From the IMG/VR virus record IMGVR_UViG_3300030060_004465, positions 6,726 to 30,927 of that record: DNA of 24,202 nt. One strand, written 5' to 3'. The stretch comes from a virus. Positions 895 through 7,059 of the stretch are shown piece by piece; the first letter of the stretch is position 1, and each line of letters starts with the position of its first letter. Below the pieces are notes generated by a model that was given only the letters and a program-made list of their open reading frames with translations, did no database searches and had not been told where the DNA came from. Position numbers and translations under genes: made by a program.

Positions 895-907
895 AAGACG
901 CATGCTA

Positions 908-933
908 CTAACAGTATGGAACGGGACTGTTAG
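908..933 (+). other. Perfect 8-bp hairpin upstream of the micro-ORF
   Basis: CTAACAGT at 908-915 and ACTGTTAG at 926-933 are exact reverse complements around a 10-base loop. The hairpin ends 8 bases before the ribosome-binding site of the 17-codon ORF. No U-tract follows, so it is not a typical intrinsic terminator. It may be an RNA-processing or translation-control structure; that role is inference. Confidence 0.5.
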
Positions 934-941
934 ATCTCCTC

Positions 942-946
942 GGAGG
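942..946 (+). promoter_or_regulatory. Strong ribosome-binding site of the micro-ORF
   Basis: GGAGG lies 8 bases before the ATG at 955, ideal Shine-Dalgarno spacing. It is the best such site seen in the window, where most starts have poor ones. It can also pair weakly with the preceding CTCC (936-939), so partial masking is possible. It is the main reason for calling the tiny ORF that follows. Confidence 0.6.
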
Positions 947-954
947 TAAACATC

Positions 955-1008
955 ATGGTACGTATCGCTCGTCGTTACGTGTATCGCGGTGTCGCATACA
1001 CCAAGTGA
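955..1008 (+). CDS. 17-codon micro-ORF with a YRGVxY motif
   Basis: This ORF encodes MVRIARRYVYRGVAYTK and then stops at TGA. The peptide is very basic. Its YRGVAY segment matches from memory the YRGVxY core of a family of small cyanobacterial and cyanophage proteins (the DUF4278 type), but nothing follows the core, so it is either a minimal form or a truncated remnant. It has a textbook ribosome-binding site 8 bases upstream and lies between a perfect hairpin and a run of further hairpins. Its stop codon falls within an inverted repeat (CCAAGTGA at 1001-1008 against TCACTT at 1045-1050). It could be a functional micropeptide, a leader peptide whose translation affects the downstream RNA fold, or a decayed gene. 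Function unknown. Confidence 0.45.
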   Translation: MVRIARRYVYRGVAYTK

Positions 1009-1025
1009 TTAGTTAAAGGCTAACA

Positions 1026-1044
1026 GGGAGGTTCGAGTCCTCCC
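1026..1044 (+). other. tRNA T-arm-like hairpin
   Basis: GGGAGG (1026-1031) and CCTCCC (1039-1044) form a 6-bp stem around TTCGAGT, the canonical 7-base T-loop. The next bases, TCACTT (1045-1050), pair with AAGTGA (1003-1008), as an acceptor stem would. The whole unit is only about 48 bases, and no D-arm or convincing anticodon arm can be drawn, so it is not a complete tRNA. Options are a tRNA remnant, an attachment-site-like match to a host tRNA 3' half, or a tRNA-like regulatory or processing structure. Confidence 0.5.
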
Positions 1045-1053
1045 TCACTTATT

Positions 1054-1140
1054 GGCTTTGGCCCGGTAAGCCGGATACCCTTAGCCGTCTAGACGGTGGG
1101 ATAGACCACACGACAATTGAATAACTCTGAACGTTCAGAG
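1054..1140 (+). promoter_or_regulatory. Structured leader upstream of the capsid gene
   Basis: Several inverted repeats follow each other without coding potential: GGCTT (1054-1058) with AAGCC (1068-1072), or alternatively CCGG (1063-1066) with CCGG (1071-1074); a perfect 12-base palindrome CCGTCTAGACGG (1085-1096); GTGG (1096-1099) with CCAC (1106-1109); and a perfect 16-base palindrome CTCTGAACGTTCAGAG (1125-1140). In T7 the equivalent place holds the strongest late promoter, an RNase III site and the leader of gene 10. A similar role here is inference. No convincing host -35/-10 pair with correct spacing was found. Confidence 0.45.
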
Positions 1141-1171
1141 AGTGGTTATACATTATTACTCTCTTTTAGAA

Positions 1172-2974: not shown

Positions 2975-5832
2975 TGGCAAGCATTACACAAAAGATTCCA
3001 AACTTTGTACTAGGTATTTCAGAACAACCCGACGATCAGAAACTACCTGGTCAAGTCAGGAACGCTGTGAATGTTGTGCCTGATATTACTGAAGGTTTAA
3101 TGAAGCGACCTGGCTCTAAGTTTGTAGCTACGTTGGCTAACCAACAGAGCGATGGTTGCTGGTTTAATTATTATCGTGATGAAAATGAAGGTTCATATGT
3201 TGGGCAGGTAGCACGTAACGGTTCTGTCCGTGTGTGGCGCTGTAGTGATGGCCAGGAAATGACTATTACTAACAGTGGTTCTCCTGCTTCTTACCTGAAT
3301 CATACTCAAGATGGACATATACAAACCCTTACTATTAATGACACAACTTTTCTAGTTAATAGAACTAAGACGGTTTCAATGACTGGTGCAGTTGCTCCGT
3401 CCAAGCCGGACACCCACTCTGCATACATTGAACTGAAACAGATCCAACCACGTCGTCAATATGCATTAAATATCTACAGCAATACAACAACAGCTCTAGA
3501 GCGTTCTGCAACAACCGTCACTGTTACTGGCCCGTTTACTAATAACGTTGCTGGTCATGATGATGCTAGAGCTACTGGATCTAAAGTTCACGTCGATCCT
3601 ACAACTGGTATTGCTGTCCGTGTAACTGTTGCTGGCCAACCTTTCGTAGAGGGTTACGACACCAGTCCTCCTAATGCTCAATACGATACGCAATACACAC
3701 TGCGTGTTGACCTACTGCATGGTGGTTCTTACACTTCAACTCTTCCTACTTTTACTGTTGTAGTTGAAGGTTTAAATTATACAGTTACTGTTACTAAAGA
3801 AGTATCTGCTTCTTACAAAGGTAACCTTAGCCGTGTCCGTCCTGTACCTGTAGACATTGAAGCTGAGACGAGTACTTCTGTTGCTGGTGTGCTGAACTCT
3901 ATTGTTTCTGAGATCAGTGGAGTTACGGCTACTATCCTTGGTAACGGTATCTATTTGACGCATAGCTCTGCATTTAATATTGAAGTTTTAGAGAGTGATC
4001 TTTTTGAGATTACACAAGACAGAGTTAATGACATCTCTAAGTTACCTACTCAATGCAAAGATGGTTACATAGTCAAAGTGACCAACTCGGCACAGCTAAC
4101 TGAAGATGACTACTACTTAAAATTTGTAGGTACTGATGGTGATGGTCCCGGTGTTTGGGAAGAATGTGCAGGACCAGGCATCGAGACAACTTTTGATGCA
4201 ACGACTTTGCCGTACATCCTGCAGAGGACTGGTGCTACCACCATGACTTTGGGCACTTACACGTGGTCACAACGTGAGGTTGGTGACGACAACACAAATA
4301 AGAAGCCATCATTTGTTGGCAAAAAAATTAACCAGGTTTTATTTCACAGAGATCGCCTGGTCTTCCTGAGTGGATCAAACATCATCCTCACCCAACCCGG
4401 TGATCTTGGTAACTTCTGGAATAAAACAGCTCTGACTTTTTCTGGCATTGACCGTATTGACATCTCATGCAGTTCGTCCAGTCCTAATGAACTGGTTGAT
4501 GGAATTGAGATGAACACTGGTCTTGTGTTGTTCAGTAGCAATGCTCAGTATTTGTTTACCACTGATGATACTGCTCTGAATCCTGAGACCGCAAAGGTCT
4601 ATGCACTATCAACCTATAACTACAATATTGATGTATCGCCTATTTCATTAGGTACGACACTAGCTTTTGTAGACAACGCTGGTAAGTTCAGCAGATTCTT
4701 CGAGATGGTAAACATCCGAAGGGAAGGCGAGCCAGATGTCGTAGAGCAAAGCAAGCCTGTCTCCAAGTTGATGGGTACTGGTCTAAACCTAGTTGCTAAT
4801 TCACGTGAAAATTCTTTCGTGTTTATGGCGGAAAAGGATACTCAAAATGTAGTTGGCTTCCGCTACTACGGACAGGTTCAGGAACGTCTTCAAGGAGCTT
4901 GGTTTAAGTGGCGTCTACGTAGACCTATTACACATCACTTTGTTGTTGATGATGATTATTACGTGGTGCATGACGATAAAACTTTGACTCGTACACCGCT
5001 ACTCACTTCAGCTGCTACTCCTTCAATCTTAAATGATGAAGATCAATTCGATATTCACCTTGATCACTTTGTCACTGTCCCTGCTGCATCGCTGACATAC
5101 AACGCAACGACTAGAAAGACCACGTTTGCTCTCCCTGCTGCATTTAATACCAGCGGATCTATTGGAGCAATCGTTACTAACAACAGTGAAGACAAAGGTC
5201 GTTACCAGATTGTCGAAGGAACGGAGCAAGCATTCGAGTCCCTGGTTGGTGAGACATCCGTCATTGATGTCAACGACAGCATCAACGCTGAGTTTATTGA
5301 TCTGAATACCGCTGACCTTGAGGGTGCCACCGTGTATGACCTTGAGTCTGGTACTACATCGATCAACTCACTTGCTGGCGCATCTACTGAATACGACTCT
5401 GGTGGCCAGACGGTATCCCTAACCGGTGACTGGACAGCACAACCCATTACTGTTGGCTACTTATACGAGATGAGTGTTGAGCTGCCAACTATCTTCCCAA
5501 CCCAAACAAAAGACAAACGTGTCGTTGCTGACACCTCAGGTTCATTGATCCTGCAACGTCTGAAGTTTAACTTCGGTGCTGTTGGTGAGTTTTGGACTAC
5601 TCTTAAACGTACTGGTAAAGCTGACTACGTTGATAAGCATGAATCATCTTTGATGAATGGCTATAGCGCCAACACTGTTCCGTACGTTGACGATAGTTTT
5701 AGAACATTACCTGTGTACGAACGTAATATCAACGTTAATGTCATCCTTAAATCAACCCACCCCTCTCCTGCAACCCTGCAATCCCTGTCTTGGGAAGGAG
5801 AATATACAAACAACTTCTACAAACGGATCTAG
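2974..5832 (+). CDS. Tail tubular protein B (nozzle), T7 gp12-like
   Basis: This forms the tail nozzle at the distal end of the short tail and contacts the fibres. It has 952 residues, longer than T7 gp12 (794). The N-terminus (MASITQKIPNFVLGISEQPD, then LPGQVRNAVNVVPDITEGL and KRPGSKFV) is characteristic, as are the central FFEMVNIRREGEPDVVEQSKP segment and the C-terminal WEGEYTNNFYKRI ending. No signal peptide or membrane segment. The start overlaps the previous stop by one base. The 3' end, up to 95 bases, is probably overlapped by the next gene in another frame. The extra length relative to T7 appears to lie in the beta-rich middle of the protein and may reflect added surface domains; that is inference. 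Confidence 0.95.
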   Translation: MASITQKIPNFVLGISEQPDDQKLPGQVRNAVNVVPDITEGLMKRPGSKFVATLANQQSDGCWFNYYRDENEGSYVGQVARNGSVRVWRCSDGQEMTITNSGSPASYLNHTQDGHIQTLTINDTTFLVNRTKTVSMTGAVAPSKPDTHSAYIELKQIQPRRQYALNIYSNTTTALERSATTVTVTGPFTNNVAGHDDARATGSKVHVDPTTGIAVRVTVAGQPFVEGYDTSPPNAQYDTQYTLRVDLLHGGSYTSTLPTFTVVVEGLNYTVTVTKEVSASYKGNLSRVRPVPVDIEAETSTSVAGVLNSIVSEISGVTATILGNGIYLTHSSAFNIEVLESDLFEITQDRVNDISKLPTQCKDGYIVKVTNSAQLTEDDYYLKFVGTDGDGPGVWEECAGPGIETTFDATTLPYILQRTGATTMTLGTYTWSQREVGDDNTNKKPSFVGKKINQVLFHRDRLVFLSGSNIILTQPGDLGNFWNKTALTFSGIDRIDISCSSSSPNELVDGIEMNTGLVLFSSNAQYLFTTDDTALNPETAKVYALSTYNYNIDVSPISLGTTLAFVDNAGKFSRFFEMVNIRREGEPDVVEQSKPVSKLMGTGLNLVANSRENSFVFMAEKDTQNVVGFRYYGQVQERLQGAWFKWRLRRPITHHFVVDDDYYVVHDDKTLTRTPLLTSAATPSILNDEDQFDIHLDHFVTVPAASLTYNATTRKTTFALPAAFNTSGSIGAIVTNNSEDKGRYQIVEGTEQAFESLVGETSVIDVNDSINAEFIDLNTADLEGATVYDLESGTTSINSLAGASTEYDSGGQTVSLTGDWTAQPITVGYLYEMSVELPTIFPTQTKDKRVVADTSGSLILQRLKFNFGAVGEFWTTLKRTGKADYVDKHESSLMNGYSANTVPYVDDSFRTLPVYERNINVNVILKSTHPSPATLQSLSWEGEYTNNFYKRI

Positions 5833-6256: not shown

Positions 6257-7059
6257 AGCCATTGAGTTGGGCGACATTAGGATTTGGAGCTGTTAAGTCA
6301 GTAGCTGGTTTGTTTGATAATAGTGCCCAAAAAGCTGCACATGCTGCAAATGTAGCACGTGTGAATTCAATCAACCGTGCAAACCAACGTATACATTTTA
6401 ATAATCTTTCTATTAGAGCTAAGTCGTTGCGGGTACGTGCAAACGTTTCTGCCCAACTACAAGCTATACGCACTAGCCAAGATCAATTAAAAGCTAACCG
6501 ACAACTACAAATGGATCGACTTGTCAGTGATTCATTGATGGACAATCAAAAAGATGCTATCCAAATGTTCCGTGGTATGACTGGTTCTGGCAGTGGTCGG
6601 ATGAATCTTGATTCTGCACGCTTAGCAGAGCTTGGTAGAACCAATGCAATGCGTAGAAATGCGCTGATGAGAAGCAGAGATGATCTAATTACTAGTGGTT
6701 ATCTTGACAGATTTACAGCACAAAACCAAGCGTCAAAGGTTAAAGCTTCTGCAGCTGTTAATCCTGTCTATCAGCAATACATTCAGGACTACACACCTGC
6801 TGTAGCACCTCCTCAAAACAAGCTATTTGACCTTGTTACTGGGCTAGGAGAAACGGCTCTGAATGTAGTAAATACACAGAATGCTTTAAAACCCCCCATG
6901 ATTGGTGGTACACCTAATACCAATCGTAGTTTGCTTGGAATTAAAGATGTACCTGTACCAGGTTTTAACATTAGTCCTGGTGTCAATACACCAACTCCTC
7001 TCGCTGTTTATCCGTTCGAGGTGCCAGGCGCTAGTGGCGGTCTTACTGAGGTTTATTAA
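6250..7059 (+). CDS. Internal virion protein, T7 gp14-like
   Basis: In T7, gp14 is ejected first and forms the pore through the outer membrane. This 269-residue protein (T7 gp14 is 196) sits in the gp14 position. It has an N-terminal hydrophobic helix (LSWATLGFGAVKSVAGLF, residues 5-22), then a long Ala/Arg/Gln-rich helical region to about residue 165, a layout typical of gp14 proteins. The C-terminal 100 residues are Pro/Asn/Gly-rich and probably extended. It overlaps gp13 by 7 bases and shares its last base with the next start (TAATG), so the group is translationally coupled. The call rests on position, composition and layout more than on a diagnostic motif. Confidence 0.85.
   Translation: MLEPLSWATLGFGAVKSVAGLFDNSAQKAAHAANVARVNSINRANQRIHFNNLSIRAKSLRVRANVSAQLQAIRTSQDQLKANRQLQMDRLVSDSLMDNQKDAIQMFRGMTGSGSGRMNLDSARLAELGRTNAMRRNALMRSRDDLITSGYLDRFTAQNQASKVKASAAVNPVYQQYIQDYTPAVAPPQNKLFDLVTGLGETALNVVNTQNALKPPMIGGTPNTNRSLLGIKDVPVPGFNISPGVNTPTPLAVYPFEVPGASGGLTEVY

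Follow-up and report, generated by a model that had tools for sequence, protein, structure and literature searches.

Organization of the capsid gene leader

The window analysed here is a 24,202-nucleotide stretch (positions 6726–30927) of a 34,297-base virus record, IMGVR_UViG_3300030060_004465. It contains the end of psbA, a small ORF, the capsid gene and T7-like tail genes, which are the genes of P-SSP7-like cyanobacterial podoviruses, and the gene order of P-SSP7 is the same. The segment in front of the capsid gene was compared with the capsid leaders of ∼150 relatives. It is composed of three parts arranged side by side: a degenerate riboswitch with a micro-ORF, a tRNA-like structure and a phage-specific structured RNA. 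The following features are located in this region of the window.

724–894: small ORF after psbA (PHROG 628, function unknown)
875–933, + strand: degenerate glutamine-II (Downstream-peptide) riboswitch (RF01704, 15.7 bits at 875–932)
942–946, + strand: ribosome-binding site of the micro-ORF, GGAGG, identified from the sequence
955–1008, + strand: micro-ORF of 17 codons, MVRIARRYVYRGVAYTK, with its TGA stop (1006–1008) in the acceptor strand of the tRNA-like element
1003–1050, + strand: tRNA-like structure, identified by its minimum-energy fold, T-stem and acceptor covariation and the true tRNAs that occupy its position in relatives
1051–1111, + strand: conserved core RNA, identified by covariation and by model R1 (81.7 bits, E 2.6e-19; one strong copy in the record)
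1054–1057/1083–1086 and 1060–1061/1079–1080: core helix P2
1063–1066/1071–1074: core hairpin P3
C1062 / A1075–C1078: asymmetric loop of the core
1096–1099/1106–1109: core hairpin P5, with the loop GAUAGA
1085–1096, + strand: palindromic hairpin CCGU-CUAG-ACGG (perfect palindrome CCGTCTAGACGG), with a stem that is invariant in 56 sequences
1125–1140, + strand: perfect leader palindrome CTCTGAACGTTCAGAG, from a repeat finder
1172–2317, + strand: major capsid protein gene (PHROG 27239 and 267, major head protein)

A first-pass annotation of this DNA had listed five inverted repeats in positions 895–1171 and a 17-codon ORF with a strong ribosome-binding site. All five repeats are present (908–915/926–933, 1003/1045, 1026/1039, 1085–1096 and 1125–1140), as are the ORF and its GGAGG sequence. 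The annotation missed that 1003–1050 is tRNA-derived, that 908/926 is the hairpin of a glutamine-II riboswitch and that the micro-ORF is a fragment of a host peptide family.

The 277-nucleotide segment folds only modestly better than its shuffled versions (z −1.83; 14 of 200 shuffles as good), as does the stretch 995–1055 (z −2.31; 3/200), and the case therefore rests on comparison. The first-pass annotation had staked its control role on conservation and covariation in relatives. The stems of the part downstream of the ORF do covary there, and the micro-ORF is conserved. Scans of the segment revealed no σ70-like promoter site, no terminator-like site was found between 600 and 1500, and no Rfam family matched the window at its gathering cut-off.

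A degenerate glutamine-II riboswitch and a host-type micro-ORF

The hairpin formed by 908–915 and 926–933 encloses the conserved AUGGAACGGG of the glutamine-II family upstream of the short ORF, an arrangement in keeping with the known location of glutamine-II riboswitch RNAs upstream of ORFs of 17–100 amino acids (PMC2864571). The score in the window (15.7 bits) lies below the 33-bit gathering cut-off for a family match. At the orthologous place in six relatives, RF01704 scores 36.7–54.9 bits, above the cut-off (48.1 bits in P-SSP7). The window aptamer looks degraded by its sequence, which renders glutamine control in the window doubtful. The end of the small ORF at 724–894 overlaps the degenerate riboswitch.

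The micro-ORF carries a YRGVxY motif. YRGVxY peptides occur at the same place in relatives, most of which also have a strong Shine–Dalgarno (SD) sequence in front of the micro-ORF, and longer phage versions of the peptide match Pfam DUF4278 under its cut-off. The riboswitch is present in 27 of 41 host-family genomes, with YRG-repeat proteins behind it. The phage micro-ORF matches the C-terminal repeat of these host proteins, including the DNA around the stop codon (host, GCCAAGTGATTAGG; phage, ACCAAGTGATTAGT). By this sequence match, the micro-ORF is a C-terminal fragment of the host glutamine-riboswitch peptide family.

As the first-pass annotation had noted for one arm of the 1001–1050 repeat, the micro-ORF stop is located inside 1003–1008. 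This placement recurs: in most ORF-bearing relatives, the stop overlaps the tRNA-like element, with an offset of 2–12 nucleotides from the start of the element. Because the stop lies in the acceptor strand, it is plausible that the ribosome and the fold exclude each other at this site.

A YRG-like motif and the riboswitch core string occur together in 40 of 48 loci with the tRNA-like (type A) element, sampled by capsid protein. This association of the riboswitch and the YRGVxY micro-ORF with the type A element, and the micro-ORF stop within that element, would suit a composite regulatory leader in which glutamine sensing and micro-ORF translation switch the downstream folds and set capsid expression. 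Such a leader is rather unlikely. The core is kept without the riboswitch and the micro-ORF in 16/23 loci of the alternative type B described below, the window aptamer scores far under the RF01704 cut-off, no terminator was found, and a host gene pair that carries the same riboswitch forms a unit of its own. Attenuation by a leader peptide, which formed part of the composite control element of the first-pass annotation, finds no support: MVRIARRYVYRGVAYTK contains no run of one codon and no obvious regulatory codon run, no intrinsic terminator follows the peptide in 600–1500, and phages without the micro-ORF still have the core. The remainder of that proposal survives: the leader is composite, conserved and covarying, its micro-ORF is conserved, it probably contains a processing site, and it forms a structured 5′ UTR before the capsid gene.

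The tRNA-like element

In the fold of 1003–1050, a 6-bp acceptor is formed by 1003–1008 (AAGTGA) and 1045–1050 (TCACTT), and a 6-bp T-arm is formed by 1026–1031 (GGGAGG) and 1039–1044 (CCTCCC), with the canonical T-loop UUCGAGU at 1032–1038. A D-arm-like hairpin occupies ∼1009–1024. Plain energy folding recovers this tRNA-like fold in both the window and P-SSP7. The fold contains no anticodon arm, and ARAGORN calls no tRNA in the window. The acceptor and T-stem (6+6 bp, with a T-loop) add up to the ∼12-bp coaxial length of a tRNA, with a T-stem of 6 rather than 5 bp.

The pairing is supported by comparison. Double compensatory changes are observed at 6/7 T-stem pairs (0/500 shuffles). The acceptor table comprises loci selected because they have an acceptor, and it excludes six type-A-like loci whose acceptor is imperfect or truncated. 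In this table, 26/30 loci have at least five Watson–Crick acceptor pairs (2000 permutations: mean 4.2, maximum 10/30), and the acceptor and T-stem total 11–12 bp in 49/52 loci. The split of this total varies, from 7+5 in tRNAs to 6+6 in the window and 5+6, 5+7 or 4+7 elsewhere. The distance from the T-loop to the core is 15–16 nucleotides in 52/52 loci. The length of the acceptor/T-arm is thus kept as a ruler, as in a substrate of RNase P or RNase Z. Position 1 of the element is a purine in all 37 distinct elements. The element thus retains the features used by tRNA-processing enzymes and has lost those used for decoding. A host origin of the element was rejected because no T-loop motif was found after the ORF of host riboswitch-peptide genes.

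At the same place, relatives carry a full tRNA-Gly(UCC), a tRNA called Leu(aag) by ARAGORN, tRNAs with an abnormal D-arm, anticodon-less mini-tRNAs or a different hairpin. The tRNA forms constitute a graded series from full tRNA through decayed tRNA to mini-tRNA without an anticodon arm. The full tRNA genes end 1–3 nucleotides before the first conserved GG of the core. In the cultured phage NATL1A-7, the annotated tRNA-Gly and the core match share one base, the last of the tRNA and the first of the match, and the tRNA of locus L169 scores 70.3 bits in Rfam.

The type B alternative is a ∼9-bp hairpin with the loop CACCUCAGAGUCGGA, which is identical in 133/142 hairpins built on 55 different stems. 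Its length and spacing are similar to those of the type A element, without a T-loop. In a sample chosen by capsid protein only, type A was found at 48 loci and type B at at least 23. The type B hairpin is found outside the capsid leader as well: on the reverse strand of L169, near position 17, before a gene beginning MSFYSNST..., and on the reverse strand of L188, near position 2857, before psbA.

The core RNA

The core at 1051–1111 is marked by a hairpin of the form GCC-stem-UACG-stem-GGAUACC with a conserved asymmetric loop (C / AYAM). An alignment of 56 distinct sequences has 96.7% of its pair cells paired, and double compensatory changes occur at 10/14 pairs, a result matched by 0/500 shuffles. 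The G-U pairs are read on the + strand, and the core therefore acts as a + strand RNA. RNAalifold on A1 prefers local GGC/GCC pairing plus the palindromic hairpin; P2 is favoured over this fold because of the covariation at columns 7–37 and 11–32.

With the covariance model, each phage genome yields a single strong hit, before the capsid gene. Among 151 host-family genomes, the model matched one, at a phage contig with a capsid gene, and a host origin of the core was rejected. Rfam 15 gave no match to 1051–1111 at E values up to 10 and none to the core in 20 other loci. The core is a phage-specific RNA that belongs to no Rfam 15 family. No description of it was found in the open-access papers searched, which is weak evidence of novelty since most subscription journals lie outside that search. 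Because of GGUGCAAGUCC in relatives, assignment to a small ribozyme or a cobalamin-type T-loop RNA was considered and was dropped for lack of Rfam support.

The same core hairpin is recognizable by eye before the capsid gene in P60, S-CBP42, SS120-1, S-TIP28 and Syn5; the model misses the diverged Syn5 leader, for which the likeness is by eye. Two further resemblances, also by eye only, were noted. Hairpins like the core GCC..GGAYAMC precede the capsid gene in roseophage CRP-804 (L412) and in the more distant marine podoviruses P-SCSP1o (L413) and L414, and in L090, L128, L187 and similar loci the core hairpins apparently follow the type B hairpin in permuted order. In L044 (2561–2800), the core ends early, after P2, and is followed by an ORF, MHRSIEWAAGLFEGEGY..., that resembles a homing endonuclease.

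The conserved stretch occupies the position of T7 φ10, contains palindromes and, at 1096–1111, has a sequence (GGGAUAGACCACA) like the start of the T7 φ10 transcript, and it could on these grounds be a DNA signal, namely a promoter for a phage RNA polymerase or an operator. This is very unlikely, as the stems vary with compensation that includes + strand G-U pairs, each genome has a single strong copy of the core rather than a motif repeated at several genes, and no σ70-like site is found. The known Syn5 promoter motif occurs elsewhere in Syn5, only at 4929 and 44797, and a phage promoter was rejected as the main reading.

Palindromes before the capsid start

The hairpin at 1085–1096 and P2 are alternatives since both use 1085–1086. 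The invariance of its stem in the 56 sequences leaves no covariation for or against it, and other relatives have other self-complementary loops at its place. In the second palindrome (1125–1140), the overlapping segment 1137–1143 can also pair with 1158–1164, just before the capsid start.

Counting related sequences more than once, a perfect palindrome of at least 10 nucleotides is present between the core and the start codon in 76% of leaders compared with 10% in shuffles (∼60 different sequences), and the loop of leader hairpins (stem of at least 5 bp, 4-nucleotide loop) is self-complementary in 41/45 cases compared with 3/184 in the capsid coding sequence. The palindrome sequence differs from phage to phage, and its self-complementarity, loop included, is kept. 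The 3′ half of the palindrome is in many cases complementary to the sequence preceding the capsid start codon, before which no SD-like sequence was found in any of 147 distinct leaders. The existence of G-U versions points to RNA, and kissing-loop dimerisation or mutational palindrome correction are possible causes. It is conceivable, if quite improbable, that the tRNA-derived mark frees the capsid message and that the self-complementary-loop hairpins pair capsid mRNAs as kissing or duplex dimers, protecting the mRNAs or timing their SD-less translation.

A putative tRNA-mimic boundary in the late transcript

The observed anatomy, covariation, replacement by true tRNAs, near-constant ruler length and phage specificity are consistent with a tRNA-mimic boundary in a late polycistronic transcript that is cut by host RNase P and/or RNase Z to give a capsid mRNA with a protective 5′ end. 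We place this reading at about an even chance of being correct. Element 1003–1050 would separate the upstream unit (psbA, small ORF, riboswitch and micro-ORF) from the capsid unit. Host tRNA-processing enzymes would recognize the acceptor/T-arm stack, with RNase P cutting near 1002|1003 and/or RNase Z after ∼1050–1051. The capsid mRNA would then start with the folded core at 1051–1111, a possible shield against RNase E/J attack on the 5′ end of the message. Behind the core lies an AU-rich translation start that lacks an SD sequence. While the micro-ORF is being translated, the element would be unable to fold or to be cut, and vice versa.

The direct start of the core after the tRNA-like element favours cutting. 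RNase P is known to act on mRNAs and phage RNAs as well as on tRNA-like structures (PMC11143913). Host RNase E rises upon P-SSP7 infection (PMC10989914), which may make a shielded 5′ end of the capsid mRNA useful. Four points weigh against cutting. The type B hairpin found at this place in many relatives has no T-loop, which means that the locus can do without a tRNA shape or that a different enzyme operates on it. In six type-A-like loci, the acceptor is imperfect or incomplete. A tRNA may also come to lie between phage genes by chance, and an RNase P cut would take away the stop codon of the micro-ORF.

The tRNA-like element may instead be bound and not cut, capping the 3′ end of the upstream message or recruiting EF-Tu or the CCA-adding enzyme, with the core serving as a protein or ribosome site for SD-less translation. 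Mimicry of the T-loop and acceptor would by itself suffice for binding, and both the conserved C/AYAM loop and the capsid start without an SD sequence agree with such a role. The true tRNAs that abut the core must be cut out to function, however, and the type B hairpin has no T-loop to be bound, so this explanation appears distinctly improbable.

P-SSP7, a laboratory model, belongs to a group of phages that is common in the ocean. In this group, the capsid leader holds a strongly covarying RNA outside all Rfam 15 families, next to an element that can be followed from a full tRNA to a mimic without an anticodon and that apparently obeys a length rule. If the tRNA-mimic boundary is a cut site, it would indicate a way for T7-like phages to split late messages by means of host tRNA enzymes and a way in which strong expression of a capsid gene may be achieved without an SD sequence. 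It would also suggest one reason for a phage to retain a tRNA, which is processing and not decoding.

Comparison with known systems

The known tRNA-like substrates of RNase P include the phage M3 and C4 RNAs, T4 gene 32 mRNA and the polycistronic his mRNA (PMC11143913). The element described here resembles tRNA punctuation and these substrates in having a tRNA-shaped acceptor/T-arm stack inside a transcript. It differs from them in preceding a capsid gene, in joining directly to a conserved 5′ RNA domain and in being an anticodon-less mini-tRNA of near-constant length, for which cleavage is proposed from comparison.

With the glutamine-II riboswitch systems (RF01704), which score above the cut-off in relatives and hosts, the locus shares the AUGGAACGGG hairpin and a small downstream ORF with the YRG motif. 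The window copy is degenerate in comparison, and its ORF is reduced to one YRG repeat. In the phages, a tRNA-like element follows the ORF, whereas the host riboswitch genes have no such element and often have a terminator-like sequence.

The T7 gene 10 leader (φ10) has the same place before the capsid gene and a GGGA(UA)GACCACA string, and some relatives have TTAACTTTA in common with it. The resemblance of GGGAUAGACCACA in the window to the φ10 transcript start, GGGAGACCACAAC, may reflect chance or shared ancestry. Unlike the leader described here, φ10 has a promoter and an SD sequence, and it has neither the tRNA-like element nor the core.
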